Virus record (IMG/VR): IMGVR_UViG_3300021511_000002
Coordinates: 1-31,860 of that record
DNA length: 31,860 bases
Strand: one strand, 5' to 3'
Origin: a virus
This document shows positions 30 through 28,005 of the stretch, one piece after another (the stretch's first letter is position 1; every line of letters begins with the position of its first letter). The position numbers and the translations under genes were made by a program. Under the pieces are notes generated by a model. That model saw nothing but the letters and a program-made list of their open reading frames with translations. It did no database searches and was not told where the DNA came from.

Positions 30-339
30 CAAGCCAGCCGTAAGCAGTTACGCTTGCTAGATGGTTGCGGAAATCGATAGTAACCTCATCTAGGGCTATT
101 TTCCCACCCCAGTAACCCTCAATATGCAAAAACAATATATCGCCAAGCGCCTTTGCGGTCTCCCACTGTGCCTGGTCTATCGTCAGGGATACCGATCCGC
201 TATCTATAGCGCCTTCCCCTACACTCCCCCCGTGATTTATAGATATGTTCTTTTCTACATATTTGTCAATCACCACGAACCTGGTTAAATCGCTGGCGTC
301 CAACACCCTAATCGTTACTATGTTGCTAATATTTCCCAT
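1..339 (-). CDS. Tail hub/tip protein, N-terminal 113 codons (continues at 31831)
   Basis: This is the start of an 892-residue protein whose remaining 779 codons plus stop lie at 31831-29492. The ATG at 337-339 overlaps the end of the tape measure gene (stop 326-328) by 14 bases, so the genes are coupled. The N-terminus (MGNISNIVTIRVLDASDL) continues through a beta-rich segment with alternating hydrophobics and no signal peptide. Lying directly downstream of the tape measure is the usual place for distal-tail (Dit) and tail-associated lysin/hub (Tal) genes. The reading frame is fixed by the junction: 339 bases is exactly 113 codons, and 31831 down to 31712 is exactly 40 more before the first internal GTG. 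The ribosome site is weak (GTAGGCG), which fits coupling. Confidence 0.85.
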   Translation of the reverse strand, partial: MGNISNIVTIRVLDASDLTRFVVIDKYVEKNISINHGGSVGEGAIDSGSVSLTIDQAQWETAKALGDILFLHIEGYWGGKIALDEVTIDFRNHLASVTAYGWLDYADSIRYLD

Positions 340-3300: not shown

Positions 3301-3601
3301 GCAGATCATACATGCCCGCGGTTAGGTCCCCAAAATCAATAGGAATATCAGACATTGCCCGCAGTTTCTTTTCCATTCGCGGTAGAGTTCTCGCCGCGGT
3401 CTCATCCATGAGGGTAGCAACATCGCGCAGTCCAGTATCCAGCTCGGTCAGCCCGCTAATTAATTGACTGGCAAATGGGATCGCATTAAGCGCAAGCATC
3501 GCGCCCTGGATATTCTGCAATCCGCCTACGGAAGATTGTATTTTTTGCTGACTCTCAGCCGAGTCAACCGAAATCTTAATCTTAATGTGGTTTTCTGCCA
3601 T
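326..3601 (-). CDS. Tail tape measure protein
   Basis: A 1091-residue protein that sets tail length and is expected inside the tail tube. Residues ~50-230 resemble the TP901/PhageMin_Tail region (helical, with the segments TAGMYDLQSAGHG, REAADLGTTILNAYKL and KTPRAMSAMNRAILSLDAP). Residues ~440-640 and ~700-900 are long charged coiled-coil-like helices separated by a Gly/Ser-rich linker (~680-710). Near the C-terminus are a hydrophobic, membrane-insertion-like segment (~985-1025) and the common tape-measure ending AQGGLV...IGEAGRELAIPL. At roughly 0.15 nm per residue the tail would be about 160 nm. The only ribosome-site-like sequence is a run of 11 G directly before the ATG. Confidence 0.93.
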   Translation of the reverse strand: MAENHIKIKISVDSAESQQKIQSSVGGLQNIQGAMLALNAIPFASQLISGLTELDTGLRDVATLMDETAARTLPRMEKKLRAMSDIPIDFGDLTAGMYDLQSAGHGNEQMFEALRVASYAAMGGLTSVREAADLGTTILNAYKLETSELTNVYDTMFNTVKLGKTTMPELASSIGQIVSSANMAKIPLKDLMSTIATLTLAGIKTPRAMSAMNRAILSLDAPSTGAKKRLEELGITIDVQADGIIKTIGKLKAANLSAQDWKAIIPSIRAQKAVKALVNQFEKLTEVRSRMDKTGETQRAFEIQKESIENQLKLLKKTGMAILTDLGKAVLPVLKPIAAIAKSLTGLFDAVPKPIRNAAVQMLVMRAALGPMGGMATRMVTGFRNLNTHIGGSSKALKNLKGGFAGLSAQVKMMALAAAITFTVSQLTKLYNIVKSTEDILKKAAKERARFAQEQKEHAANARQFASQMIDDMETGTRSFSDRKTAIEATEAVLKGLTAQEVVLRQKGVKASDERIQAIHRNRAALKQHKSDLMNMSDLDFASKPISKMKDMAAGWQGVGSEIKNAEMVANGAKFSGTWISQITGIQGAVQGLVGKLREAAREAARLQKEAARVKELKSKELENKYSEGQVSLPTGKPNEWKTVGKDGSIIITTQSGVNYTQGLADETVTGRTTKKPPKRTGGGPSQQKSNGGGGGGGSMQAPGLSQEELERVEEINERYDLILEAHQDTSEKALAAKNKAWKKAQDELDTEFDKGKMSLEDYAKKNKEINKEKTDFLLVSASLELVIEKNKARELKGITSEAEKVFLKDIKEWTKKRDAFKKAGDKKGLKQAALQLKAAKKRLDKFQKDNIKGLKSYQNKKKQLTKAHQKDIAKIENDGENKRAEATQAMQDKIQAGLESWSGAYATVFTSLGETTGQWIADSSVNFRDFFTGLGDMMYSALIGVIDMMRTEAMASAAKDAIKTLGFPAGIFATAGAALAASAQFIPFYLAAGVAKGAFSKLAQGGLVATPGGITAQIGEAGRELAIPLDNPQALSGVREMLVKMGVGNQNQNININNPILLSDSQIAMQKFTKELSKSMRRHGRRYGKY

Positions 3602-9219: not shown

Positions 9220-10245
9220 TTATGGTATAATTTTTAGAGCCTTGACACACATCGGGTTAACCAGGATCGGAATGCCGTAATAACTGATCTGCTCCCAGTA
9301 TTTATAGGGCTTCTTCTCCCCTGATTTTACCCCACCACCACTATTTACGCCGTAGCCTACCCGACCCGTACTAGGATCAACAACTCGCGCTAATACCCAT
9401 GCTTTTCGAGAATCCCTAGGCATAAAATAAATCACATTGTCCGTCAAAAATGGAAGACCTGCATGCACTAGCGGCGTTCCGCTGATTTTTCCCCATCTGC
9501 CAGCATGTTTTTGCCAATCTAATCCCTGCCAGCCCCTAGGGACTTGTCCTGGACGTCCATACATGAGGTCACTCTTAATCCCCTCATCCATAGCTCCCCA
9601 ATCACCAGTTATTGCCGTCCGAATCGTCTTGCCCGTTGTATTATTGTAAAATGCAATAACTTCATCAATTCCATTCTCATTTAGCGTATCCAAAATTCCT
9701 GCCAAATCACCGTAGACATCAGAACCAGCTGCAAGCCAAGACACAGCAACCGTAGTTAGGATCGTATGTCCAGTTACATTCATATCTACGCCAGGATCTA
9801 TGGCATCCACGCCTGCAACCTGCGTAATCGTTCCCAAACTTCCCTGCTCAGCAATAGCATGCTCCAGGCGAGCCTCTATAGACCGCTGACAAGCGTTCCT
9901 CATCAGCGCTCTTGCCTTCATTTCGCTCAGTGGGTTACCCGCCTCGTCAGTCAGTCCGTTCTGCACCATGTCAGCCTGCGAGAGGCTCTTTTCGATCAAC
10001 ATGGGAAGCGCATTTACCTCTTTTTGACCTGGACGCTGATCGTGTAGCTGCTGTGCATTAGCACCTATGGTAGAGACCCCACCCATCTCACCTTTTTGCA
10101 TACCTTGAGACACGCCTAGACGTCCCGTAGGATAATTCTTCGCACTTTTTTGAAGGTATTTGAGCAACGGATGGGAACTATAAATTTCTGCAGTATTAAG
10201 CGCAAGAACTTCTGGTGTCGCCTTAACTATCGTTTTGCTTAACAT
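9220..10245 (-). CDS. Major capsid protein
   Basis: 341 residues. Position after protease/scaffold and decoration gene and a strong ribosome site (GGGGGAGGTAAAAA) point to the abundant shell protein. The N-terminal arm (MLSKTIVKATPEVLALN), the helix KARALMRNACQRSIEARLEHAIAE, the strand-rich middle (TGHTILTTVAVSWLAAGSDVYGDLAGILDTL) and the ending PYKYWEQISYYGIPILVNPMCVKALKI match the general HK97-fold pattern, closest by eye to the lambda gpE/DUF-type capsids. The family assignment is tentative; the role is not. Confidence 0.82.
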   Translation of the reverse strand: MLSKTIVKATPEVLALNTAEIYSSHPLLKYLQKSAKNYPTGRLGVSQGMQKGEMGGVSTIGANAQQLHDQRPGQKEVNALPMLIEKSLSQADMVQNGLTDEAGNPLSEMKARALMRNACQRSIEARLEHAIAEQGSLGTITQVAGVDAIDPGVDMNVTGHTILTTVAVSWLAAGSDVYGDLAGILDTLNENGIDEVIAFYNNTTGKTIRTAITGDWGAMDEGIKSDLMYGRPGQVPRGWQGLDWQKHAGRWGKISGTPLVHAGLPFLTDNVIYFMPRDSRKAWVLARVVDPSTGRVGYGVNSGGGVKSGEKKPYKYWEQISYYGIPILVNPMCVKALKIIP

Positions 10246-11702: not shown

Positions 11703-13750
11703 TTTTGAATGTCTACCTGCTGAAAATGTATTCCATCCTCCAAAACTTCCTCTATTGATACCATACTCAACATACTTCTGCAGCCCGTGTGAAGAGGCGG
11801 TCTAATTTCGTCAATGCGGGGATCGTCGTATCTGTAATACCCCCCTGAAAGAGTCTCACAAACATCAGTCTGACGCCTGTCCTCAACCCCAATAAATTCG
11901 CATCCTGGAACGAGATCAGCGGGTAAGTATTTTCGCCTATACGCGTCCTGTTCCAGTTCTAGAAAACGCGTAAATTGTGTACTAGACATCGTATTCGCTC
12001 TTTGAAGCGAAAATCTCGCGCCGAAAGCCCGTAACTCCGCTGGTGTCAAGCCCTTAGACGCCTTCTCGGCTGCCATGCGCTGGAAATCCGCAGCGCTAGC
12101 ATAGACAAGGTTTTCGTTCTCACCAAGATAACGCAAAAAATAATCCCTACCAAGACGCTTACCGTCTTGGGTCCGCAACCACGCAGACATCGTTAGCGGG
12201 ATATCTCCTGCCAGTTCTTCTGTCATCGGAAGCCCGAACCTCATAGCAAGAACCATGCCAACTTGACGCGCAATCCAAAGCCGCATGCAAGTCAAGACTT
12301 CAGATAGGCTCTTATTGATTTTTTCCAGAGCGCCAACCTCCGCAAAATAGACAAGCGCTTGCTTTTTCATCCTATCCGCGATCTCAGATTGATAGGGATC
12401 CTGTCTTCTCATTTCCTCATAACGGTTCTGAGCCCATTTCCGACCCCTTAACTTTACACTCAATTTCTGCAACTTTTCCACAGGGGGGGTAGGTGCGATT
12501 TCAACCACGCTGCCCGCTGGCAATCCCAACGCCATAGAAACAACACCAGCATCAACACGCCAGCCCGCATTTTTCGCTTTCACATAATTATCCATTTTCT
12601 CACGCCTACTCACATCAGGCAGCTGCCAGTCTATGGACAGTTTGCTACCCATTATTCCCAGACTCTCCAAATATGGCTTGAAAACCTGAGCTATCAGTTC
12701 CTTTTCCAGTATTTTTGCATAACTCGATATAATGTTTTGCATAATTGGTTCTTGTGCTAAAGCTTGCGCATACGTTCCATATTTACTTTCCATGATCAGA
12801 CTCGTGCTGCCTATGATACCCCGTGCCTGCTGTCGTGCAAATAAATCGATAAGGTCTTGCATTAATGTCGGCTGCACAGACCCCAGAGGGAGAGCACTAG
12901 TTTTGAGCCCGTCGGGAATCCCAACGTTGAAAAGCTCCTCTATCCCTGCCATATCCAAAAGATAGCGTTCCTTTTCTGCCTGATCTACCTGTAGATACTC
13001 CCCGTCCTTGCCCATTACGCGCTCTGTCATGAGTCGGGGTATAGCCAGCTTTTTAGTGTAAATCTCAGCGGCTTTCTGGACGTTCTGACGGCTTTGGAAC
13101 GGCTTAAAAATCGGTCTAAAAACAGACATACCCCAAAGACAGCGGGGAAGCGAAACCCCTCGCAAAATCAACAATCTAGAAAGCGGAACGTAGTCAACAG
13201 ACCGCTCTTTTCCGTCTACTACCACCTCATAAGTCCCCGTCATCTGCTGCCAAACCACGCCAACGGGCTCGTATTCGTCAGTCAATTCAAAACGCGTTGG
13301 CGTCGGCAATAGACGCAATCCCTTGCAGATCGGATTCCCCGCTGCATCGGCATCCCAAAGAATCTCACTAAAAGACGTTCCACAGATCAGAGCCCATCTA
13401 AACGCGTCTCCAATCCCCGTTAGCAAGTCTCCAGCCGTCTCTAGTAGCCTCTCTATCGCCCCATGAGGTGCACCCCGCACTATCATCCCGCCACTGACAA
13501 CATAAGAAACCAATAAGTCAATTAAAATTTTGCTTAAAAAATCGTCCTTATACATATCCTCATAAACCGTTTCACCATATTTCACTTGATTCGGGTCAAG
13601 CGCTTCCTTCTGCAAATTCTCTGAATCCACGACCTCCACAGATGCCCTGTAAGCCTGCATAGCTGCCAATTTACGCTGTATGGACGGAAAAAACATCCCA
13701 ACATATTTACTGCGCGTGGTTTTGCCTAAAAGCTTTTGTATGAATTTCAC
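11699..13750 (-). CDS. Portal protein (Mu gp29/DUF935-like) fused to MuF head-morphogenesis domain
   Basis: 683 residues. Residues ~40-420 resemble Mu gp29/DUF935 portals: WALICGTSFSEILWD, LPRCLWGMSVFRPIF, ARGIIGSTSLIME, YAKILEKELIAQVFKPYL. Residues ~555-680 are a MuF (SPP1 gp7-like) domain ending with the Cys/His pattern VCETLSGGYYRYDD...RPPLHTGCRSML. In most phages portal and MuF are separate genes, so the fusion is notable though not unique. The portal ring is the DNA gate; MuF is a minor head protein delivered with DNA. One minus-strand copy of the TTGGCATGGTTCTTGCTA motif lies within it (12244-12261). Confidence 0.88.
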   Translation of the reverse strand: MKFIQKLLGKTTRSKYVGMFFPSIQRKLAAMQAYRASVEVVDSENLQKEALDPNQVKYGETVYEDMYKDDFLSKILIDLLVSYVVSGGMIVRGAPHGAIERLLETAGDLLTGIGDAFRWALICGTSFSEILWDADAAGNPICKGLRLLPTPTRFELTDEYEPVGVVWQQMTGTYEVVVDGKERSVDYVPLSRLLILRGVSLPRCLWGMSVFRPIFKPFQSRQNVQKAAEIYTKKLAIPRLMTERVMGKDGEYLQVDQAEKERYLLDMAGIEELFNVGIPDGLKTSALPLGSVQPTLMQDLIDLFARQQARGIIGSTSLIMESKYGTYAQALAQEPIMQNIISSYAKILEKELIAQVFKPYLESLGIMGSKLSIDWQLPDVSRREKMDNYVKAKNAGWRVDAGVVSMALGLPAGSVVEIAPTPPVEKLQKLSVKLRGRKWAQNRYEEMRRQDPYQSEIADRMKKQALVYFAEVGALEKINKSLSEVLTCMRLWIARQVGMVLAMRFGLPMTEELAGDIPLTMSAWLRTQDGKRLGRDYFLRYLGENENLVYASAADFQRMAAEKASKGLTPAELRAFGARFSLQRANTMSSTQFTRFLELEQDAYRRKYLPADLVPGCEFIGVEDRRQTDVCETLSGGYYRYDDPRIDEIRPPLHTGCRSMLSMVSIEEVLEDGIHFQQVDIQK
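12244..12261 (-). promoter_or_regulatory. Sigma-54-like motif, only copy in gene direction
   Basis: The minus strand reads TTGGCATGGTTCTTGCTA, matching the consensus as well as the plus-strand copies. It encodes VGMVLA in the portal-MuF protein. It could be chance, or the one sense promoter of the set. Confidence 0.3.
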
Positions 13751-13756
13751 CTAACT

Positions 13757-13785
13757 ACACTATATATTCCCCTTAATCCTGTCAA
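13757..13785 (-). promoter_or_regulatory. Candidate sigma-70-type promoter upstream of portal gene
   Basis: TTGACA (13780-13785) overlaps the terminase stop codon. TATAGT follows after 15 bases, or TAGTGT after 17. It sits in the 31-base gap before the portal ATG. The TTGACA is also part of a palindrome (TCCTGTTGACAGGA, 13777-13790), a possible operator. Confidence 0.35.
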
Positions 13786-15164
13786 CAGGAGAACACATTT
13801 ACTCGCGCAGGCGAAACATACTCGCTATGTTTCGATCTCTTCCCTGCCCGCAAATACAGAATCCCCTGCGTAATCGTGTCCACTATATCATCATGCTCAC
13901 CACGTGGAAACAACAGCAACTCATCAACCGCTTCCGTAAGTCGTTGATTGACAAGGACTTGACCAGATTCAAAAAAGGGCAATACCATGTTAACATAATA
14001 TATCTTGTTATGCTGCTTACCCACGCCCTTGACAGGTAAATCCCACTGCTCCCTATAGTATTGCACGCCCAGTTTTAGGGTCATCACGTCCTCTATTACC
14101 GCTATCTTAAGCAGACGGTGTCGGTCTATTAGCTGCTGACCTAGCATAGCACTCTCCCGCAGACTATCCCAACGCCCACGCAGCATGTCCATAATGTAAT
14201 AGCAGCCGTCCTTACCCTTGCCGATCACGGTCATAACGGTATAATCCGCGGCTTCACTTTTCCCAGCCGCTATATCCACACTAAGAATTGAATACTCAAT
14301 GTCCACAGGAACGCTCTCATCGTAAGTCCTTATCCACTCAGGCTTGATCATATACCCCCCTGTGTTATGGGGATTCATTTGATATTGACAGGCAAATATG
14401 GCGCTCCCCAGTGCTTGCTTTTTGTCCGCTAGGAATTCGTCAGACAAAATCGCTGGGTATCTGCTCTTACCCTGTTCATTATAGATATCATGAGCGTAAT
14501 CATTACCAGGCAAGCCTTGTCGCATTAACCTGTGATACTCATCCGCTACATGGTAACGAGTGCCATAATAAAGACGCTGCGACTTCTTCCAATCTACTAG
14601 CGTAGGGTATATCGTGGTCGCCAAACGATACCGCAGAGCATCCCTCTGGGCTCTGGTCTGGCTATTCTCATTATCCACTATATCGTCAAGGTCGAGAAAC
14701 TCAAAATGCTTCTGAGTCCACTGCCCCGTCAAGCCCGCGCCCCAGACCGTCGGCTCGGTCTGCATGCTATCACGCCGCGCTATCGTCCATAATTCCAGAT
14801 GCTTGCTGCGCTCCGCATCGAAAACGCCTGGAAAGATCGCATTGAGTTTCTTGTTGTTTTCCCATTGATGTCGCACCTGGTCTAATATCATGGCAGCTTG
14901 GCGCTCCGTATCCGAGCACAAGCCCTGTCTAGCCAATGGATAGTGTAGCATCCTATAGACCCGTATAGCCGTCCCTAGCACAGTCTTGCCAGAGCCGCGT
15001 GCTCCCAGACAGACATAGGCACGGGCATCCCATAGATCATAAAGCATGCGCCTATGTTCAGGATAAAATGTAAACTGCGGAAACAGAACATCCGTCAGAA
15101 GCGTCCATAACCCGTCAGGAGCGGTCAGTATGTATTTGGCTAGGGATTCATACCTATTTTTCAT
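13782..15164 (-). CDS. terL: Terminase large subunit
   Basis: 460 residues, ATPase-nuclease that packages DNA. ATPase domain: Walker A LGARGSGKTVLGTA (residues ~53-66) and Walker B FEFLDLDDIVDNE (~155-167). RNase H-like nuclease domain: SILSVDIAAGKSEAADYTV (first Asp, ~294), IAVIEDVMTL (~357) and the terminal acidic motif RGEHDDIVDTITQGI (~427). All three acidic positions are present, so the enzyme should be active. It overlaps the small-subunit gene by four bases. Confidence 0.95.
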   Translation of the reverse strand: MKNRYESLAKYILTAPDGLWTLLTDVLFPQFTFYPEHRRMLYDLWDARAYVCLGARGSGKTVLGTAIRVYRMLHYPLARQGLCSDTERQAAMILDQVRHQWENNKKLNAIFPGVFDAERSKHLELWTIARRDSMQTEPTVWGAGLTGQWTQKHFEFLDLDDIVDNENSQTRAQRDALRYRLATTIYPTLVDWKKSQRLYYGTRYHVADEYHRLMRQGLPGNDYAHDIYNEQGKSRYPAILSDEFLADKKQALGSAIFACQYQMNPHNTGGYMIKPEWIRTYDESVPVDIEYSILSVDIAAGKSEAADYTVMTVIGKGKDGCYYIMDMLRGRWDSLRESAMLGQQLIDRHRLLKIAVIEDVMTLKLGVQYYREQWDLPVKGVGKQHNKIYYVNMVLPFFESGQVLVNQRLTEAVDELLLFPRGEHDDIVDTITQGILYLRAGKRSKHSEYVSPARVNVFSC

Positions 15165-15880: not shown

Positions 15881-16084
15881 GCGAATGTGGGCGGCATTTC
15901 TCCAAAAACACCAATGTTAGTGTATTTTTATATCGGCTAATAGTCACTTTTAGACAATTCATATTAACCCCCCCTGTGCCATCTTATACACTATATACCA
16001 TACTAGGTTTACATAATATATTTTACTAGTATTCATGATTTCAGTAGTATGCCATACCAGATTAAATATAACTCTTTACTATGC

Positions 16085-16133
16085 AAGGACTTAGCCCAGA
16101 TTTTCTTACTAGCCATTTTTTTATTAAGTCCTT
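16085..16133. repeat. Inverted repeat AAGGACTTA / TAAGTCCTT
   Basis: Arms at 16085-16093 and 16125-16133, loop of 31 bases that contains CTTACTAGCCA. It could be a cruciform or protein-binding pair. Confidence 0.55.
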
Positions 16134-16168
16134 CCCCTAAATCGTTGTATAGCATGGAGTTACACACC

Positions 16169-16193
16169 GTGGTCGGCATTAATGGTCGGCATT
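16169..16193 (+). repeat. Tandem GGTCGGCATT boxes, right
   Basis: Two copies (GTGGTCGGCATT and ATGGTCGGCATT) 13 bases apart, inverted relative to 15760-15776. Confidence 0.6.
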
Positions 16194-16265: not shown

Positions 16266-18467
16266 TTAGAAATCGGGTTCAATAAATTCCTCATTTTCTT
16301 GGTCATTTTCCACAATTTCCTTATTCTGGGTTATTTGCACAGTTTTCCAAATTATCCCCATCACGTATTTGGCTCTTTTCCCGTTCATTTGCACTCGTTT
16401 TATTCGTGCATTTTTCCCACATTCAAGCAACTTCCTGGTAAACCAGGCAATTTCGATATCCTTAGAAGAATAGCTCCTAAAATCTGCATAGAGATCATCA
16501 CATGGGATACCTGCGCCTTCGCCGTCCTCGAGATTATCCAGAAACCAGTCTAGCACTGGATTATCCCGACTGAGGGCGATCATGGTATGCTCTTCATTGT
16601 CTTCGGGGTTTGCCCAGCCGTTTTTGAGAAGGTCAACATAGCCCGCTAGCGCCTGGTTAAGGATTCCTGGCAGTTCCTTTTTGATTTCCGTGATGATTTT
16701 GGTTTCCATGATTTGCTCTTTCTCAGCCCTGAACCGATGTGGGAAATAAATGATCTGAATACGATCCCTCATGGCTTGCTGGCTGAGCAGATACTTGGGT
16801 AGCGAGTTTGCAGTGCAAACGATCTTGGCATGGTTTTTGAATTCTGTGGACATAGCATATAAGGCGCGTCCTGTAATTACGTCGCCGCCGACCAGAGCCT
16901 TTAGGAGTTCGGTATTTTCCAGGCGCTTGCTAGGCAGCTCAGGGGAAAAACACGTGGTCATGTTATGCAGTCGGATTACTTCGCGCTCCTCTTCCAGCAG
17001 CTTATTCAGCGAAACATTCACACAGTTCTTGCCCAATATGGTTTGCATGATATGAACATAGGTGCTCTTGCCCGTTCCAGCGCCGCCGAGCAAGACAAAG
17101 AACTTCTGGAATTTCGTGCTTTTCACGAGACACAACCCGAGCAACTGGTTTAAGGCGCGGTTTTTTTGTGAGTTACCCCCAGCCAATCCGTCAACGATCT
17201 TGTTATAGTAGTGAGCTTTGGCTCGAGAATTATATTCTATATCTATCCCCGCAGTGTGAAACTGCTCTTTTTCTTGCTGATTTCGTGTAAATGTCCACTT
17301 ATTGTTAACAATGCGCAGAATCCCGTTGCGAACCACAACCGTCTCGGGATGCGTGGGCAACTCGTTACGGGCTATATGATTCTCCATGCCAGCTAAGATA
17401 AGCATACGCAATCGGTCTAACCAGGTGTCAGAAAATTGATAGAGCAACATCTCTTGGGACAGCATGGTTTTCAGATTGTCGGTTGAGTAAGGTTGCCAAA
17501 AGTTGGCTTGTTCTGAGAATTTATACGTTGTATTGGGGTTGTTCATGGAAATAAGTTCATTTTTTCGCATGATTTCAAGCGCCATACGGATTATGGGTTT
17601 AAGTGAGCGCTGTTTTTCCACCTGCTTAGCCGCGCTCTGCACTAGCGCCTTGACCTCGCTATCGGGGAGCGGTGGCTTGTTTGTCTTGTGGTTTTCTGCC
17701 CGAATCTGGGCAAGGACAATATCTATGCCAAGAGAAGCGGGTGGTTTGAGCAGATCTTTAGCACGCCCAAACAGGAGCTTGTTTCGCTTGCCTTCTGTTA
17801 CGTTTATTTTGGCACACTTTTTGCGAACTGGAAAGCTGCGAAAATGATAGCGTTCTGTGTGCTGTGTCCATAGCGTGGTATCCACCCCGCGCTTGTGGTT
17901 GCGCGATCCGGGCAGGCGCAAAATACGACTGGAGTTGCGGACGCTCACGTCCACGTCCATGTCAGTCTGATCAAAGATCGTGCCAAGAATGGGGTATAGC
18001 GTGGAAAAAAGGTAGTCAGTAGCCTGTTGCGGAGTGAGTGCAGCGCGTAACAGCCAGATCGCCTGTATCCCTGCGCCAGTGTGTAGGATATAGTTCGGGG
18101 TTGGCACGTCTTCGTCTTCTATGATTAAATTGCCATAGTATAATGCAGCACCTGTATCAATTGGTTGGTGTCCAGCACTGTCTATATCGCACCACAGCGA
18201 AGTAATCTCATGGACGTCTATATCTTTGCCCCCTGAGTATGGATTGCTTGGCAGGACAGCCCTTCTGTTGACGCCATAATAGACATTCTTTTTTGAAACT
18301 TCAAGCCAATTATTGATTAACCACTGGTTGCAGATTTTAGGCGTTTTAAAATAAAATTGCTCACCTCGCTGAAAATGTCCTTCACGCATAAAAGCAAGCT
18401 CTATATAACCCTTAACCTGCGCTGGAAAAACGTTCTTTAAAAATTGCGTATATTGTGTGTCTTCCAT
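16266..18467 (-). CDS. Primase-polymerase / D5-like SF3 helicase fusion
   Basis: 733 residues. The N-terminal AEP-like primase has LWCDIDSAG (residues ~96-104, catalytic Asp pair), a HTGAGIQAIW motif (~134-143) and RILRLPGSRNHK (~182-193). The C-terminal D5-N/SF3 helicase has Walker A LGGAGTGKSTYVHIMQTIL (~458), ETLLKALVGGD-like NTELLKALVGGDVITGRALY and sensor-like KIVCTANSLPKY. It would unwind DNA and prime replication. I start it at 18467 because AAGGAATTCTCTAATG gives a ribosome site just downstream of the previous stop. The frame is open a further 73 codons upstream, but that stretch overlaps another gene and looks non-coding. Two sigma-54-like motifs are embedded (16825, 17809). Confidence 0.92.
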   Translation of the reverse strand: MEDTQYTQFLKNVFPAQVKGYIELAFMREGHFQRGEQFYFKTPKICNQWLINNWLEVSKKNVYYGVNRRAVLPSNPYSGGKDIDVHEITSLWCDIDSAGHQPIDTGAALYYGNLIIEDEDVPTPNYILHTGAGIQAIWLLRAALTPQQATDYLFSTLYPILGTIFDQTDMDVDVSVRNSSRILRLPGSRNHKRGVDTTLWTQHTERYHFRSFPVRKKCAKINVTEGKRNKLLFGRAKDLLKPPASLGIDIVLAQIRAENHKTNKPPLPDSEVKALVQSAAKQVEKQRSLKPIIRMALEIMRKNELISMNNPNTTYKFSEQANFWQPYSTDNLKTMLSQEMLLYQFSDTWLDRLRMLILAGMENHIARNELPTHPETVVVRNGILRIVNNKWTFTRNQQEKEQFHTAGIDIEYNSRAKAHYYNKIVDGLAGGNSQKNRALNQLLGLCLVKSTKFQKFFVLLGGAGTGKSTYVHIMQTILGKNCVNVSLNKLLEEEREVIRLHNMTTCFSPELPSKRLENTELLKALVGGDVITGRALYAMSTEFKNHAKIVCTANSLPKYLLSQQAMRDRIQIIYFPHRFRAEKEQIMETKIITEIKKELPGILNQALAGYVDLLKNGWANPEDNEEHTMIALSRDNPVLDWFLDNLEDGEGAGIPCDDLYADFRSYSSKDIEIAWFTRKLLECGKNARIKRVQMNGKRAKYVMGIIWKTVQITQNKEIVENDQENEEFIEPDF
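16825..16842 (+). promoter_or_regulatory. Oriented sigma-54-like motif
   Basis: TTGGCATGGTTTTTGAAT, within the helicase domain. The coding strand reads FKNHAK. Confidence 0.45.
17809..17826 (+). promoter_or_regulatory. Oriented sigma-54-like motif
   Basis: TTGGCACACTTTTTGCGA keeps both invariant GG and GC. The coding strand reads RKKCAK. Confidence 0.5.
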
Positions 18468-18478
18468 TAGAGAATTCC

Positions 18479-18880
18479 TTAAATGTTGACCAAAAAAGAC
18501 AGACAAGTTTCTATGATGAGCTCCAGTTCCCCGTTGTTTTTCATTACCCCCTGCGTTATATGTCTTAAGCGGTATACGTATCCGTAGGCGTGCTTTAGAT
18601 TTTGGCACGGTTCTTGCTTGTCTAAATTTATTGGCGTTAGCCAAGTTTCTGCAGTCCGCAGGCAGCAAGCGGCTACCTGTGCGCATTCTGATCGCGCCAT
18701 TTTTTTCAACGCGCCTTGATATTTATTTTTATCCATTCTAATGCACGCGTTAACAAATTCATCAAGCTCAATTAAAATAATGCCTAAAGACATCTCAACG
18801 GAGAGGTGCTCATCGGGATGCTTCGCTTTTGCATGTTGTAATTCTTCCCTAATTAACGCTTTGGCTTGTATTTCGTTCAT
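18479..18880 (-). CDS. MazG-like nucleotide pyrophosphohydrolase candidate
   Basis: 133 residues, all-helical. The central pattern SLGIILIELDEF...ARSECAQVAACCLRTAETW resembles phage MazG-like proteins (E-x-x-E on one helix, then E...QVAA on the next), which hydrolyse nucleoside triphosphates to control pools. The acidic set is incomplete compared with classical MazG (ExxE12-28ExxD), so this is tentative. It overlaps the upstream gene by four bases (ATGA), with AAGGAG ahead of it. A perfect sigma-54-like motif (18602) lies inside, antisense. Confidence 0.5.
   Translation of the reverse strand: MNEIQAKALIREELQHAKAKHPDEHLSVEMSLGIILIELDEFVNACIRMDKNKYQGALKKMARSECAQVAACCLRTAETWLTPINLDKQEPCQNLKHAYGYVYRLRHITQGVMKNNGELELIIETCLSFLVNI
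18602..18619 (+). promoter_or_regulatory. Oriented sigma-54-like motif, best match
   Basis: TTGGCACGGTTCTTGCTT matches the textbook -24/-12 sequence (TGGCACG-N4-TTGCT) at every conserved position. It is embedded in the MazG-like gene, antisense, encoding QEPCQN on the other strand. Confidence 0.6.
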
Positions 18881-20349: not shown

Positions 20350-20495
20350 TATTCACTCTCCTTTGATTCGAAATATTCACATTTGGGGTTACCGTTCTTA
20401 AGCCATTCCTTATAATACATGCAATAGAGGCGTAAATTCAAAAATTGTGCAAAAGTGCATGCTGCACATTTCCAATTCTTAGATGTCGTTTTCAT
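20349..20495 (-). CDS. Small Cys-rich protein (48 aa), zinc-binding candidate
   Basis: MKTTSKNWKCAACTFAQFL... with Cys at 10, 13, 25 and 39 (WKCAAC, LYCMYY, PKCEYF), a possible single zinc site. Ribosome site AAAGGAAATG. Lies in a run of tiny genes and shares its Cys-rich, aromatic character with the next gene upstream. Confidence 0.6.
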   Translation of the reverse strand: MKTTSKNWKCAACTFAQFLNLRLYCMYYKEWLKNGNPKCEYFESKESE

Positions 20496-20498
20496 TAT

Positions 20499-20723
20499 TC
20501 ATTTCCTTTCTTTTGGGGTGTCTTCGCTCCCCATGCGTTTTTTTGATTGTATGCGGAAAAGGAAGTCTATCAAAACCCTTCTGAGCGCACTCAACGCTAT
20601 GTAGGCGTGTTTTACATTCTCGGGCGTGTAGCACTCGGTCTGCATGTGGGTTGTTCCCCAGCATACACATTCACCTTTTTCATAATTTCTACAATTCCAG
20701 CATCCGTTACCCTTTTTCTTCAT
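20499..20723 (-). CDS. Small Cys-rich protein (74 aa), zinc-ribbon-like
   Basis: Starts MKKKGNGCWNCRNYEKGECV followed by CWG...ECYTPENV: five Cys in the first 35 residues, in the CxxC-x7-CxC...C spacing seen in small phage zinc proteins. The C-terminal half is basic and helical (RRVLIDFLFRIQSKKRMG). Ribosome site GGGGGAGG. Function unknown. Confidence 0.65.
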   Translation of the reverse strand: MKKKGNGCWNCRNYEKGECVCWGTTHMQTECYTPENVKHAYIALSALRRVLIDFLFRIQSKKRMGSEDTPKERK

Positions 20724-23342: not shown

Positions 23343-24182
23343 CTAAAAAACTTGTTGGTATTTTTTTCTTCCCTTTCTACATTGATAATAGTTGTCTATC
23401 AAGTTTTGAATGTTGGCATGGTTTTCTATACATAACATGTTATATTGGCACGATCTGCCGTATTGCATGCATGCAGCGGGATTTTGTAGCCATCGCGCAA
23501 GATTCTCATTGTAACGTGAATTTACAAGGCTCGCAAAATGCCAGAGGTTATTTTCTGTATGAAGTAAGTCATCAAGAGTATATTGACAGTCAACACAGGG
23601 ATAAGCAAGATTTTTGTTTGTATAAAATTCTGTAAGCTGTTGCCTATACTCATCATGGGTCTCGTCAGGTTTCGTTTTTCGTCCTGTTTTCCTGCGGATC
23701 TTGCTCGGTCTTATTAGGATTTGGATTTTAACAGGCAAATTGTCGCCATGTTTTTGCCAATATGCATAAGCATAAATCCTTGCTTGCCATGACCTTAGCA
23801 CCTCGGCATACGAAAAATTGGCGTAGGTTTTGTATTCTAAAATTGTGAGCTGCCCTTCTATCTCCACTAGCGCGTCCAGGTAGCAGACCAGGCGTGTGCT
23901 TTCCAGTGGGATGTTTATCTCTTTTTCAACCTCTTTTGTTTCATAATAATGGGAATAACCCGCAATCATTGTTTCTGCAAGGATTTTTTGCTCTTGCGTC
24001 CATTCTGGACAGACTGCTAACTTGTTGCCTTGCAACGCGTTATGGATTACTTTCCCAAACTGGAGAGCAAACGCCTCTTCCTGCTCGCGCAATTCTATCC
24101 TTACTATCTTTTGCCAATAATACTTACGCGGGCACAGCAGGTAAGTATTAAGACTATTTGCACTGATCGTTATTTCGTCCAT
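23343..24182 (-). CDS. Cas4/RecB-like PD-(D/E)XK nuclease with Fe-S cluster cysteines
   Basis: 279 residues. N-terminal SANSLNTYLLCPRKYYW with the first cluster Cys (~17), catalytic strand CYLDALVEIEGQLTILEYKTY (D...ExK, ~103-121), and a C-terminal CMQYGRSCQYNMLC that supplies the other three Cys. This is the AddB/Cas4 layout of a 5' to 3' exonuclease. It forms a module with the Sak4-type ATPase 17 bases downstream. No CRISPR array is present, so it is a phage recombination enzyme rather than an adaptation factor. Confidence 0.85.
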   Translation of the reverse strand: MDEITISANSLNTYLLCPRKYYWQKIVRIELREQEEAFALQFGKVIHNALQGNKLAVCPEWTQEQKILAETMIAGYSHYYETKEVEKEINIPLESTRLVCYLDALVEIEGQLTILEYKTYANFSYAEVLRSWQARIYAYAYWQKHGDNLPVKIQILIRPSKIRRKTGRKTKPDETHDEYRQQLTEFYTNKNLAYPCVDCQYTLDDLLHTENNLWHFASLVNSRYNENLARWLQNPAACMQYGRSCQYNMLCIENHANIQNLIDNYYQCRKGRKKYQQVF

Positions 24183-24424: not shown

Positions 24425-24579
24425 TTTTTCAACCAGTAATATACGCAACTATGTATATTAGTATTCTCTACAAGAATGTTTTTGATTTCTTCCTGGTCAA
24501 CTCCCGTGCTAAGGGACAGCTCCTCTAACGTCTGGTGTCTCTGTTCCAGTGCCTTGAGCACTTTTTCTGCATTATTCAT
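24421..24579 (-). CDS. Small HTH-like protein (52 aa)
   Basis: MNNAEKVLKALEQRHQTLEE, then LSLSTGVDQEEIKNILVENT, ending YYWLKK. The pattern helix, then LEELSLSTGVDQEEIKNIL (helix-turn-helix), then short hydrophobic strand is that of a minimal winged-helix. Strong ribosome site AAGGAG. It is the first gene after a terminator-like hairpin. Confidence 0.65.
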   Translation of the reverse strand: MNNAEKVLKALEQRHQTLEELSLSTGVDQEEIKNILVENTNIHSCVYYWLKK

Positions 24580-24603
24580 TTCTGCTCCTTCCATTTATTC
24601 CAA

Positions 24604-24645
24604 TAAAAAAACCCCTAAACCTGCTCAATGAGCGAGTCTAAGGGG
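24604..24645 (-). terminator. Rho-independent terminator (minus strand)
   Basis: The minus strand reads CCCCTTAGAC...GTTTAGGGG then seven T. The inner part (GCTCATTGAGC) extends pairing. It lies between the 24695 gene and the ribosome site at ~24590, so it would either end the first early unit or attenuate entry into the recombination genes. Confidence 0.75.
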
Positions 24646-24694
24646 CAGTGCACGTTGTTTTATGTGGCGTTGCTCACCACTGGTATAGCCCTAT

Positions 24695-24895
24695 CTAAGT
24701 AAACAATCTGGTTGACTGGTCAAAAACGAACCAGTCCTTCCCACCTCCCTTCAGGACTCCCTTGATGTAGCCCTTGTTTATTGATATTTTTACTACTTCT
24801 CGCTGGCGATCTATCCGCCAGCGTTTGCCATTTTTTGCCAAAATCCAGACGTGAGCGCCAATCACGCCTCCGATCTTGGCGTATTTATCCCTCAT
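24695..24895 (-). CDS. Hypothetical protein (66 aa)
   Basis: MRDKYAKIGGVIGAHVWILA... basic, strand-rich (WRIDRQREVVKISI, GGGKDWFVFDQS). Start chosen at the ATG overlapping the upstream stop (ATATGAGG). A GTG nine bases further up (24904) would add MEN. Not recognised; it may be a small beta-barrel. Confidence 0.65.
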   Translation of the reverse strand: MRDKYAKIGGVIGAHVWILAKNGKRWRIDRQREVVKISINKGYIKGVLKGGGKDWFVFDQSTRLFT

Positions 24896-25197
24896 ATTTT
24901 CCACCGCAGTGCCCTGCGCACCGCGGTCAAGCTAGTGCTCTGGCGCACTAGCTCTAGTCTGCAGCGGGTCTGTAGACTCTCCAAATCTGAAGTGTAATAA
25001 TAGCGTCTATCTCCTGACGCTATCCTGAGATCCCATCCAGCGGGAATCTCAGAATTCCTACAAAAAATATCTCCCAAGACAGGCAATAATGCCGTCTTGA
25101 GAACTCTCTCATCTCTGGTCCGGGGGTGATAATAATAACACATCCCCCGATCGTCTAGATCTTCAGTGCGCCGTCCGCACCTTTTACATTTCTTCAT
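24892..25197 (-). CDS. Hypothetical protein with N-terminal zinc motif (101 aa)
   Basis: MKKCKRCGRRTEDLDDRGMC then YYYHPRTRDER: Cys4, Cys7, Cys20 and His24 could bind one zinc. The rest is basic and helical (RCRLELVRQSTSLTAVRRAL). Preceded by the hairpin/AAGAAAGGA leader (25198-25233). Unknown role, early operon. Confidence 0.65.
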   Translation of the reverse strand: MKKCKRCGRRTEDLDDRGMCYYYHPRTRDERVLKTALLPVLGDIFCRNSEIPAGWDLRIASGDRRYYYTSDLESLQTRCRLELVRQSTSLTAVRRALRWKI

Positions 25198-25233
25198 TTT
25201 CTAATCCTTTCTTGCTCCCTCGAGCGAGGGAGC
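25198..25233 (-). promoter_or_regulatory. Hairpin + AAGAAAGGA leader, copy 4
   Basis: Stem GCTCCCT/AGGGAGC (extendable to 9 bp through CGAGCG), then AAGAAAGGATTAGAAA and ATG: 16 bases from stem to start. Confidence 0.7.
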
Positions 25234-25247
25234 GTGTATGGTAAAAA

Positions 25248-25583
25248 CTAACCTACTGCATACCCCGAGCAATGCACAATCCCGCGCATGCTATCGGTGG
25301 GTGCAGTGTCTAGTATGGCATAGACTCTCTCGTTTACTGCTTGTGGAGCTCCTGAGTTTTGCACAGTGTGAAAAATCTCAGCACGGTCAACCCGCATGAT
25401 GCTCTCTACATCATAGCCTTCGGAGATCAGACATCTAATAATGATTCTTGCTTCCTTATCTATCTGTTTTTTGTTCATTTCAGATCCTTTCTTGCTGCCC
25501 GTGAGGGCAGCGTGCATACTGGTTTCCAATTCTATGTCTTCTACTTTTTCAACTTCATTCATGATTCTCTCGGTTGCGTTCAT
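25248..25583 (-). CDS. Dual-start hypothetical protein (111 aa; 76-aa internal form)
   Basis: Long form starts MNATERIMNEVEKVEDIELE. A second in-frame ATG at 25478 starts MNKKQIDKEARIIIRCLISE. Each start has its own copy of the hairpin/AAGAAAGGA leader; the second leader is read through as coding sequence (HAALTGSKKGSE) in the long form. The common part (GYDVESIMRVDRAEIFHTVQ, YAILDTAPTDSMRGIV) is not recognised. Either two overlapping products are made, or an ancestral stop between two genes was lost. A further in-frame upstream extension to 25664 has no ribosome site. Confidence 0.6.
   Translation of the reverse strand: MNATERIMNEVEKVEDIELETSMHAALTGSKKGSEMNKKQIDKEARIIIRCLISEGYDVESIMRVDRAEIFHTVQNSGAPQAVNERVYAILDTAPTDSMRGIVHCSGYAVG
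25479..25511 (-). promoter_or_regulatory. Hairpin + AAGAAAGGA leader, copy 3 (inside a reading frame)
   Basis: Stem GCTGCCC/GGGCAGC with a four-base loop, then AAGAAAGGATCTGAA and ATG at 25478. The stem shares position but not sequence with copies 1 and 2. Confidence 0.7.
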
Positions 25584-25619
25584 TTCCAGTCCTTTCTTGA
25601 CCCCTCGCCTTGAGGGGTC
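25584..25619 (-). promoter_or_regulatory. Hairpin + AAGAAAGGA leader, copy 2
   Basis: Stem GACCCCT/AGGGGTC with a seven-base loop, then AAGAAAGGACTGGAA and ATG at 25583. Confidence 0.7.
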
Positions 25620-25636
25620 TTTCATGTGATTAACAA

Positions 25637-25981
25637 CTAAACTATCTCTCCATAGGCATAACAAAACTTAACCCCTTGCTTGCTCCATATTTTACCAGTG
25701 CCGCTCACCCTGAAATCCTTAAAACGAGTGCTGCCATTGACAGAGCCATATTCTACGGAAATGGTGGTGTTTTTTCCAGGTTTTACGCGAGAGCATAAAA
25801 CCCTGTATCCATCTTTGAATTCTTTTGCAATATATCTTTTTTTAGATGGAACTGGAACATGAACAGGAGATGAAAAACCAAAATCCTGGTCTTCCTTTAG
25901 CCATTCTCCATAACTTTGGAGCGGGCGCCCCAAACTATCCACTTCAACCGTCTCTTGATATTCCTGGTATCTCTTGTTCAT
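25637..25981 (-). CDS. Hypothetical early protein (114 aa)
   Basis: First gene after the candidate early promoter. MNKRYQEYQETVEVDSLGRP begins an acidic helical segment; the rest is strand-rich and basic (KKRYIAKEFKDGYRVLCSR, TTISVEYGSVNG, KFCYAYGEIV). Not recognised. The place at the head of the early operon suggests host takeover or regulation. Confidence 0.7.
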   Translation of the reverse strand: MNKRYQEYQETVEVDSLGRPLQSYGEWLKEDQDFGFSSPVHVPVPSKKRYIAKEFKDGYRVLCSRVKPGKNTTISVEYGSVNGSTRFKDFRVSGTGKIWSKQGVKFCYAYGEIV

Positions 25982-26016
25982 TCTAAGTCCTTTCTTGACC
26001 CCTCGCTTGAGGGGTC
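25982..26016 (-). promoter_or_regulatory. Hairpin + AAGAAAGGA leader, copy 1
   Basis: Stem GACCCCT/AGGGGTC with loop CAAGCG (6), then AAGAAAGGACTTAGA and ATG at 25981. Also shares the flank TGAAA with copy 2, so the pair arose by duplication. Confidence 0.7.
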
Positions 26017-26039
26017 TTTCACTTTCTTTTACTATATAT

Positions 26040-26068
26040 ATGGTAATATACGCGGTCTATTTTGTAAA
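26040..26068 (-). promoter_or_regulatory. Candidate early promoter
   Basis: TTTACA, 17 bases, TACCAT (TATATT lies five bases closer), followed by the AT-rich TATATATAGT. It is ~60 bases before the first early gene and reads into it. Confidence 0.45.
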
Positions 26069-26223
26069 GGACTTTCTTTATTTTTTTTGCTTTTTTTAAG
26101 ATTTATTTCATTTCCCCTAAGCCCTTAACAGTCAACGGATTACAGAAACGAGCAACCGCTTTATTCAATAAGAAATAACGAAAAACCACTTTTATGTCTT
26201 GCATTACGGCAATCATGAACTAG

Positions 26224-26262
26224 AGAGCATAAAAAAAGCACCTGGAAACGCGCTCTTTTTTT
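26224..26262. terminator. Bidirectional hairpin terminator candidate
   Basis: Plus: AGAGC...GCTCT then seven T. Minus: AGCGC...GGTGCT then TTTTTTT. Either direction can form a stem plus U-run. Confidence 0.4.
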
Positions 26263-26443
26263 GCAGTTGATTTTGCCACTAAAGACAAGGTAACCCCTTA
26301 CTGTCTAATGACTTGCGGGGTTTTCCTTATGAATTGCTTTACCTGTTCGTGTGAATTGCCTTGCTGTCAACAGGTTACACAAAAACTCCCCTAACCTGCG
26401 CAGCAGCAAGCGGTTACGGGAAACTTCATTTTTGACCTGCGAG

Positions 26444-26452
26444 TTATCCACA
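26444..26452 (+). promoter_or_regulatory. DnaA-box-like 9-mer
   Basis: TTATCCACA is identical to the high-affinity DnaA box. Single perfect copy in non-coding DNA, so it is suggestive only. Confidence 0.3.
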
Positions 26453-26512
26453 AATAAAGGGTTTCAGGCGCTTTTGCAAACCTTGCGCATTTTGAGGGTT
26501 TTTGTCATTTCA

Positions 26513-26539
26513 AAGATGACGGTATATCGTGGTTTGCAG
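26513..26539 (+). repeat. Palindromic repeat R1
   Basis: GATGACGGTATATCGTGGTT followed by TGCAG; matches the 19.4-19.6 kb cluster. Confidence 0.7.
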
Positions 26540-26639
26540 CGAGTTTTGTGCTTGATTGCGCACTCCTAAAAATCCAAAATAAGGACGTCAAAAAAACAAG
26601 GTCTCTTTACCCTTAGAATCTTTTTTTAAACGCTTAAAA

Positions 26640-26677
26640 GGGCTGTCTATAAAGGCAAATAGAGCACGCCCTTTTTT
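26640..26677. terminator. Hairpin terminator, stronger on plus strand
   Basis: GGGC...TCTAT/ATAGA...GCCC followed by six T on the plus strand and four T on the minus strand. A plus-strand terminator makes sense only if something is transcribed on the plus strand here. Confidence 0.45.
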
Positions 26678-26780
26678 ACACTGGCATCTGTGTATCAAAA
26701 TATCTTTTCATGCCCGTGTTGACCTGTTTCTGTTCGTTGCCATAACTCGCTGTCTATCAACATGTTAGCGGATATTTGCA

Positions 26781-26800
26781 GCAAAAAAAGCTTTTTTTGC
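26781..26800. repeat. Perfect 20-bp palindrome
   Basis: GCAAAAAAAGCTTTTTTTGC. Could terminate weakly in both directions or act as a bend or cruciform. Confidence 0.6.
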
Positions 26801-26818
26801 CTTCTTTGTCTTTTCCCA

Positions 26819-26871
26819 CAAAAAAAGAGATAGCCGCAGCTCGTTGACAGGTAACGAGTTACGGCATCTCT
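26819..26871 (-). terminator. Strong Rho-independent terminator of the late (tail) operon
   Basis: Minus strand: AGAGATGCCG, CTCGTT, loop, AACGAG, CGGC, ATCTCT, then seven T. About 16 paired bases with one internal loop and one bulge. It lies 19 bases after the tail fibre stop. Confidence 0.88.
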
Positions 26872-26889
26872 CCTTTCTTAAGGGATATG

Positions 26890-28005
26890 CTAAAGGACGT
26901 TGCCGATTTTCATCATAAATTCTGCCGTGCAAAGGTGGTAATCCCCTAGCGTTGCTGTCCCCGTGTTGGTTATGCAAAATTGTAGCCGATCCCCCGCAGA
27001 CAACGGTATAGCGAGCCCCGTGGTGGCAACGGTATAAATTTCTGCCGCCGCCCACAAAACGAATAGCCCGCTAGGCGCCCCATTGATATAGACTTCTATT
27101 TGCACTTTTTCGCCTAGCCCAATAGATGGATCGTTTCCGTAAACATTAGCAGCTAGATTATTGACGCGCCTGTTACGACTGCCCCCCCAGCGCACGCCTA
27201 GTCTCCAGAGTTGCCCAGATTCAGGCACGATATACGCGTCCTCGCTACTATCTCCACCGATCGCTGTGTAATCGTTTGTGGATAGTCCCGTGCCAAAAGT
27301 GCCACAAACTACCTGAGGATATATGTTTGCTGAATTTAGTTTTGTTTGAGAAATCGCTGCAGCTGCTATTTTTGGCTCAGTAACATTCAAGGCAAGTATT
27401 TTTGGCGTGGTTATAATATCATCTTGTAGATGAGCAGTCTCAACTGAACCAGGATATATGTCGTCAAGCCCATAAACACATGAGCTTAAATCATGTCCAG
27501 CCGTTGACCCGTCTCCCTTACCAATCAGCGTGATTGTTGCATTAAGTCCCAAAAGTAATCTATAATCAGGAAAAACCTTAATTCCAGGCGGATTCATCAG
27601 ATTTTCTATTAATCCAGTGGGGAAAGTTGGCACGGCATCGTAATCCTTGAGTTCTATTTCAGCTTTTCTAGCGCCACCACAATCTTGCGATATGCTAGTG
27701 CGCCATACATAGAGGGTCCCACCATAGTTTATTGAGATCTGTAGCCGATCTCCGAGCTCGAAGAAACCCGCCAATAGAACCGTCCAGCGCGCTGCCGTGA
27801 GTTTTGAATTACCATAATTAACAGATCCTTCTGCGAGATATGTTGCATCATTACTTTTTATTGTCCGCTTGCCTACAGATAGCGCCAAATCTTCTATATT
27901 GCGGTTGACCTGATCCGCGTCAATAGCGTAGTCTTCACTGGGAGTCGCCGGAGTCGGATCATTCTCAAACCACCACGGGACATAGTTTCTTGCTTTTTGC
28001 GTCAT
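26890..28005 (-). CDS. Tail fibre-like protein
   Basis: 371 residues. The N-terminal part starts MTQKARNYVPWWFENDPTPA. Residues ~185-235 have the repeating fibre-shaft pattern (GSVETAHLQDDIITTPKILA then LNVTEPKIAAAAISQTKLNS). The C-terminal ~130 residues are beta-rich (TNF-/collagen-like head feel: GTFGTGLSTNDYTAIGG, RLQFCITNTGTATLGDY). It is the last gene of the late operon, followed by a strong terminator, which is typical of receptor-binding fibres. ATG overlaps the upstream small ORF stop (TAATG). Confidence 0.75.
   Translation of the reverse strand: MTQKARNYVPWWFENDPTPATPSEDYAIDADQVNRNIEDLALSVGKRTIKSNDATYLAEGSVNYGNSKLTAARWTVLLAGFFELGDRLQISINYGGTLYVWRTSISQDCGGARKAEIELKDYDAVPTFPTGLIENLMNPPGIKVFPDYRLLLGLNATITLIGKGDGSTAGHDLSSCVYGLDDIYPGSVETAHLQDDIITTPKILALNVTEPKIAAAAISQTKLNSANIYPQVVCGTFGTGLSTNDYTAIGGDSSEDAYIVPESGQLWRLGVRWGGSRNRRVNNLAANVYGNDPSIGLGEKVQIEVYINGAPSGLFVLWAAAEIYTVATTGLAIPLSAGDRLQFCITNTGTATLGDYHLCTAEFMMKIGNVL

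Follow-up and report, generated by a model that had tools for sequence, protein, structure and literature searches.

Why is each of four start codons in one small phage operon preceded by a hairpin that directly abuts the ribosome-binding site? The window, that is, the whole stretch of DNA analysed, comprises 31,860 bases and is a complete virus record; its minus strand carries all recognisable genes of the phage. The leaders are located at the beginning of an operon of ~1.4 kb, which extends from ~26040, after a gap of ~850 bp, to a probable terminator at 24646-24611. It is called the early operon from its position, and it is presumably transcribed as one mRNA from a putative transcript start of its own. 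The genes and signals that frame the question are the following:

326-3601, minus strand: tape measure
9220-10245, minus strand: capsid-like protein
13782-15164, minus strand: terminase
16266-18686, minus strand: primase
minus strand: ERCC4-type nuclease and Sak4-like annealing protein
23343-24182, minus strand: PD-(D/E)XK exonuclease
24611-24646, minus strand: probable intrinsic terminator of the early operon, a long stem followed by TTTTTTT (dG -18.9)
24695-24895, minus strand: gene 5, 66 aa, its start overlapping the gene 4 stop (ATGA)
24892-25197, minus strand: gene 4, 101 aa, CxxC near the N-terminus
25248-25583, minus strand: gene 2, 111 aa
25637-25981, minus strand: gene 1, 114 aa, no recognised family
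26040-26068, minus strand: candidate sigma-70-type promoter upstream of leader 1, TTTACA-17-TACCAT, 9/12 matches

The terminator was missed by a simple terminator scan. The promoter is a weak candidate, read from the sequence; the same scan returned 11 promoter-like sites where 6.9 are expected. The ~850 bp that separate the last late gene from the early operon (26040-26890) have no clear genes; they contain A/T tracts and a strong terminator-like hairpin (segment 26910-26761, z -6.4) and are a possible origin or packaging region.

Genes 1, 2, 4 and 5 have coding-like codon usage. No RNA-binding family or domain was recognised among the operon products, for which single-sequence structure models were poor (pLDDT 49-56), those of genes 1 and 5 too poor for use. 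The gene 4 protein has a weak WW-domain-like stretch at residues 50-75 (best E 0.005 in a phmmer search of the PDB); the Pfam WW model hits a different stretch, below its cut-off, and finding a WW domain in a phage would be unusual. A small overlapping frame that runs through leader 1 (from GTG to a TGA that overlaps the ATG) lacks a clear Shine-Dalgarno sequence.

The leaders themselves are four perfect hairpins of 7-8 bp, each abutting CAAGAAAGGA, which is followed by 6-7 nt and an ATG:

25974-26026, minus strand: leader 1, hairpin 26016-25997 (GACCCCTC-AAGC-GAGGGGTC; 8 bp, loop AAGC; MFE -16.4 kcal/mol), AAGAAAGGA 25996-25988, ATG 25981 of gene 1
25576-25629, minus strand: leader 2, hairpin 25619-25599 (GACCCCTC-AAGGC-GAGGGGTC; 8 bp, loop AAGGC; MFE -16.3 kcal/mol), AAGAAAGGA 25598-25590, ATG 25583 of gene 2
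25471-25521, minus strand: leader 3, hairpin 25511-25494 (GCTGCCC-TCAC-GGGCAGC; 7 bp, loop TCAC; MFE -15.5, centroid -14.8), AAGAAAGGA 25493-25485, ATG 25478
25190-25243, minus strand: leader 4, hairpin 25233-25214 (GCTCCCTC-GCTC-GAGGGAGC; 8 bp, loop GCTC; MFE -17.5 kcal/mol), AAGAAAGGA 25213-25205, ATG 25197 of gene 4

An earlier note on this DNA had reported these four leaders, and all of them were recovered, each on the minus strand. Its 7-bp stem is common to all as a seven-pair core, but an eighth pair, C-G, extends all stems except that of leader 3, which leaves loops of 4, 5, 4 and 4 nt; the range of 4 to 7 nt given earlier holds if seven pairs are counted. The note had overlooked that leader 3 and its ATG 25478 lie in frame within the ORF that starts at leader 2 (25583-25248). 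With this layout gene 2 may yield a 76-aa product nested in its 111-aa product; alternatively, its first 35 codons may have been added as a segment.

The register of hairpin and start site is tight. AAGAAAGGA stands directly 3' of each stem, the distance to the ATG is 6, 6, 6 and 7 nt in leaders 1-4, and the start context consists of CAAGAAAGGA, with its purine-rich ribosome-binding site, and ATGAAN after the 6-7 nt. The 10-mer CAAGAAAGGA occurs four times in the 31.9-kb record, always within a leader, and AAGAAAGGA occurs six times where 0.61 are expected. GAAAGGA alone is nothing out of the ordinary among the ribosome sites of this phage; it is therefore the hairpin together with the exact 10-mer that is special. 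Perfect stems of at least 7 bp within 7 nt of a Shine-Dalgarno sequence and ATG are found at the four leaders on the minus strand and nowhere on the plus strand, and most genes of the phage have no such leader. In 200 dinucleotide shuffles the mean raw count was 0.09 against 8 in the real sequence (two raw counts per leader), which corresponds to ~0.05 such leaders expected and 4 observed. A weak look-alike at 20495-20542 on the minus strand, consisting of a 5-bp TGGGG/CCCCA hairpin, AAAGAAAGGA and the ATG of a 48-aa ORF, was rejected as a fifth leader with a covariance-model score at chance level (E 1.2). In an Rfam search the window had no hit that reached the gathering score, and 24550-26100 had none at E ≤ 1. 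Reading leaders 1 and 2 as antisense terminators was likewise discarded: merely three T follow them, and copies 3 and 4 have none.

A hallmark of the four copies is that the stems change while the pairing persists. Three different stem sequences occur among the four leaders; in their alignment, four of the eight pairs show double-sided changes, three are invariant and copy 3 lacks the eighth, and no change disrupts the seven-pair core. Of the cells in the alignment, 96.9% are paired; sliding the partner arm by 1-3 columns lowers this to 44-52%, and none of 500 shuffles reached the observed value or covariation score, all this being based on four copies of one genome, two of them with identical stems, and thus on few independent changes. 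G-U pairs are absent from the leader stems, and the predicted stability of the local folds is nearly constant (~-15 to -17 kcal/mol) despite variable stems and loops. Pairing that is kept while the sequence changes points to the RNA fold as the thing selected. The flanks group copy 1 with copy 2 and copy 3 with copy 4, which suggests that the cassette spread by duplication.

The ribosome site itself appears to be left out of the fold. Local folds predict it to be mostly open directly 3' of the hairpin, and the leader-borne starts rank 1, 4, 9 and 12 among 38 start sites for predicted openness, i.e. the unpaired probability of -16..+3 in folds of -80..+40 (one-sided rank test, p = 0.007). They are predicted to be open in spite of lying in the operon, where folding is stronger than in the rest of the phage, and their openness is only moderately above that of other genes. 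The start of gene 5, which adjoins a 10-bp hairpin without the cassette (24927-24903), is predicted to be closed (0.17 over the Shine-Dalgarno region). According to the fold, this hairpin may hide the gene 5 ribosome site, and a closed site at a start that overlaps the gene 4 stop would be as expected of a coupled gene. The proposal that a fold next to, and not over, the ribosome site is under selection thus gains support from the compensated stems, the constant predicted stability and the open predicted starts.

The leaders do not stand alone, a point that the earlier note overlooked: the RNA of the operon they belong to is structured over its full length, coding sequence included. Hairpins are denser in the ~1.4 kb of the operon than anywhere else in the phage. 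The record has 24 perfect hairpins on its minus strand (stem of at least 7 bp, loop of 3-10 nt), and nine of them fall within the 1,380 bp of the operon, where 1.0 would be expected; folds of 600-670 nt reach z scores of -9.1 (25270-24600) and -7.3 (26045-25440; 20 shuffles each). Such scores may be misled by coding constraint, and synonymous codons were therefore permuted within each gene. The resulting z scores are -5.98 for gene 4, -3.44 for gene 5, -2.52 for gene 2 and -1.95 for gene 1, compared with -2.56 to +1.77 for 32 segments outside the operon. The coding RNA of gene 4 is predicted to form a chain of ~10 hairpins on the minus strand, several of them contiguous (25052-25025, 25024-24999, 24978-24956, 24954-24929 and 24927-24903). 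Isolated strong folds are also predicted on the minus strand outside the early operon, at 12061-12210 (z -6.0) and 16036-16185 (z -5.1).

Hairpins occurring away from start codons had been named beforehand as what would count against the leaders, and inside the operon this is partly so: perfect hairpins are also dense at places other than start codons, in genes 4 and 5, and the leaders are thus to be read as part of a structured message. In a strand-neutral stem scan G-U exceeds A-C by 10:1 within the operon, compared with 42:23 elsewhere, which is a hint, and only that, of selection on the sense RNA. An excess of sense over antisense folding energy was dropped as proof of such selection, the same bias being present phage-wide. 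A tentative idea is that selection has acted on the early transcript in its entirety as a structured RNA which is also coding, combining start-shielding hairpins with hairpin chains in the 101-aa and 66-aa genes. If so, secondary structure throughout the first mRNA might be a general phage device, for example an armour against nucleases or RNA-targeting defence, and the start-site cassette would be the opening that admits ribosomes into it. With structured coding RNA next to the leaders, one may also ask if the early mRNAs of phages are shaped to withstand decay or RNA-targeting defence.

The most likely mechanism for the leaders is the following: the four are copies of one ~50-nt translation-initiation cassette, in which a stable hairpin directly 5' of an unstructured, purine-rich ribosome-binding site would act in cis and independently of its sequence. 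By folding locally, the hairpin would leave neighbouring RNA unable to pair with the ribosome site, and the hairpin of leader 1, probably near the mRNA 5' end, would in addition shield the transcript from decay. Each early gene could thereby start translation independently inside a highly structured mRNA. That the leaders are cis-acting hairpins which insulate the ribosome-binding site and stabilise the mRNA is a proposition to which we give about even credence. Among the three roles suggested earlier, that of a 5' stabiliser setting expression is the best fit, and by analogy the leaders may act as engineered hairpins at this position are reported to do, namely as insulator and stabiliser (PMC6206723, PMC6993053). 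The leader hairpins may at the same time be one expression of the wider hairpin tendency in the operon.

Several other explanations have to be weighed against this function, which we infer from the arrangement of the leaders. It is rather doubtful that the early mRNA as a whole was selected for dense structure, for example against host or phage nucleases, with the leaders being just those hairpins that fit beside start codons: the hairpin density, the synonymous-shuffle scores of genes 4 and 5, the long folds and the G-U excess all agree with it, but it leaves the exact register of four hairpins and the identical 10-mer unexplained, and the difference between sense and antisense folding energy in the operon is not unusual. 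A translational operator, bound at its hairpin and 3' flank AAGAAAGGA by a phage or host RNA-binding protein that would repress or activate the early genes together, would account for the recurrence of one element at four starts of one operon with an identical 3' flank in all four. It also has a precedent in gp43 of phage T4, which binds a hairpin plus ribosome-site sequence (PMC3014915). We regard it as unlikely, since the operators of T4 and RB69 gp43 keep loop and upper stem (PMC3014915), whereas here the loops (AAGC, AAGGC, TCAC and GCTC) and the stems differ, and none of the operon products could be assigned to an RNA-binding family. Variable sequence, kept pairing, constant stability and a fixed register with an open site fit an insulator or stabiliser better than a sequence-specific operator, another of the roles suggested earlier.

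At the level of DNA, the palindromes could be binding sites of a protein, or be kept by template switching (quasipalindrome correction), with no function in RNA. They are symmetric on both strands and contain no G-U pair, and the related repeats of cluster K mycobacteriophages were judged to be likely DNA sites (PMC3203893). Nevertheless, three different stem sequences speak against one DNA-binding site, and neither version predicts the fixed spacing to ribosome site and start codon or an orientation that follows the genes, which makes a purely DNA-level origin improbable. The remaining role suggested earlier, a processing site where the early transcript would be cut, leader by leader, by RNase III or an endonuclease of the phage, would suit the position between cistrons. 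Usual RNase III substrates have stems longer than the 7-8 bp found here; there is no long double-stranded stem in the leaders, which disfavours this enzyme. T4 RegB cuts early mRNAs within their ribosome sites (PMC3014915), but its sequence is GGAG and the leaders read GGAC or GGAT. Processing is accordingly the least probable of these explanations, and a very remote one.

Relatives of the operon were sought at several levels. Protein scans of viral contigs with gene 1, gene 4, Sak4, terminase, primase and capsid, scans of genome contigs with terminase and gene 4, and blastn and tblastn searches of phages with the operon revealed no relative of the operon or its proteins in collections that may lack the very nearest records; there were only distant matches to terminases (26-28%) and Sak4 proteins. 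The DNA pattern GAGGGGTCAAGAAAGGA gave a single chance match in an unrelated high-GC record, and a looser pattern of the ribosome-site motif matched at least 119 stretches. Among the matches listed, one group of phage records unrelated to the window (L099, L058, L087, L031, L078 and L098), with a hairpin, AAGAAAGG and ATG, is the only one to show a compensated hairpin in several records. The stem is GTTAAAGA/TCTTTAAC in three of them, GTTAAATAA/TTATTTAAC at the matching place in the three others and GTTGATAA/TTATCAAC at a second gene of L099, pairing being kept in each case. The L099 hairpin lies downstream of a promoter-like sequence, as leader 1 may do. Common to this group and the window phage are a hairpin, a purine motif and an ATG in this order, with compensated stems; the group differs by A+T-rich stems and AGG loops, and no relationship between the phages was seen. 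Since the purine motif was the query that led to these records, its presence in them is no independent evidence; their hairpins are. The hairpin-leader architecture recurs in unrelated phage records.

Among known systems, the nearest are start-associated repeats of actinobacteriophages; the organisation is similar to the Start-Associated Sequences (SAS) and Extended SAS (ESAS) of cluster K mycobacteriophages (Pope et al. 2011, PMC3203893), which also occur in Microbacterium cluster EF (PMC7302621): a strongly conserved motif resembling a ribosome site is repeated before several phage genes, and in cluster K about half of the motifs have an inverted repeat immediately upstream (PMC3203893). The window phage likewise has a motif repeated at start codons, in four copies, each with an inverted repeat adjoining it upstream. 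The SAS motifs GGGATAGGAGCCC and GGGAAAGGACCCC differ from CAAGAAAGGA, which is found at all four sites, so that none of them matches the 13-bp cluster K SAS GGGATAGGAGCCC with up to two mismatches. The ESAS repeats are 17 bp long, imperfect and conserved in sequence, and their departures are reported as not supporting RNA pairing (PMC3203893), whereas the arms here are 7-8 bp long, perfect, variable and compensated. Microbacterium cluster EG has 8-10 short inverted repeats of 18 bp, located 14-22 bp upstream of start codons; in the parts of that report consulted they have one conserved sequence, GATCAACCNNGGTTGATC, with a 2-nt centre, look like a protein site and, unlike the leaders, come with no report of compensated variation (PMC7302621). 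Start-associated repeats have thus been known in several phage groups without a function, RNA pairing having been judged unlikely in cluster K.

The operators of T4 genes 43 and 32 share with the leaders an RNA structure upstream of the ribosome site of an early phage gene. They are single sites bound by a known protein, with a conserved loop and upper stem in the case of gene 43 (PMC3014915), whereas the leaders are a repeated cassette whose loops and stems vary and thus offer no conserved hairpin sequence for recognition. There is also an engineered parallel: RiboJ-type insulators and synthetic 5' hairpins place a short stable hairpin just upstream of the ribosome site, and for the one left by RiboJ a stabilising effect on the mRNA and a part in exposing the site have been proposed (PMC6206723, PMC6993053). 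In the predicted folds, the leaders have the same arrangement, with a hairpin directly upstream of an unpaired ribosome site. RiboJ is an engineered single 5' copy that follows a self-cleaving ribozyme; the leaders are natural and fourfold, three of them apparently intercistronic or internal, and no ribozyme was seen. If the reading as insulator and stabiliser is correct, they would be a natural counterpart of the hairpin insulators of synthetic biology.
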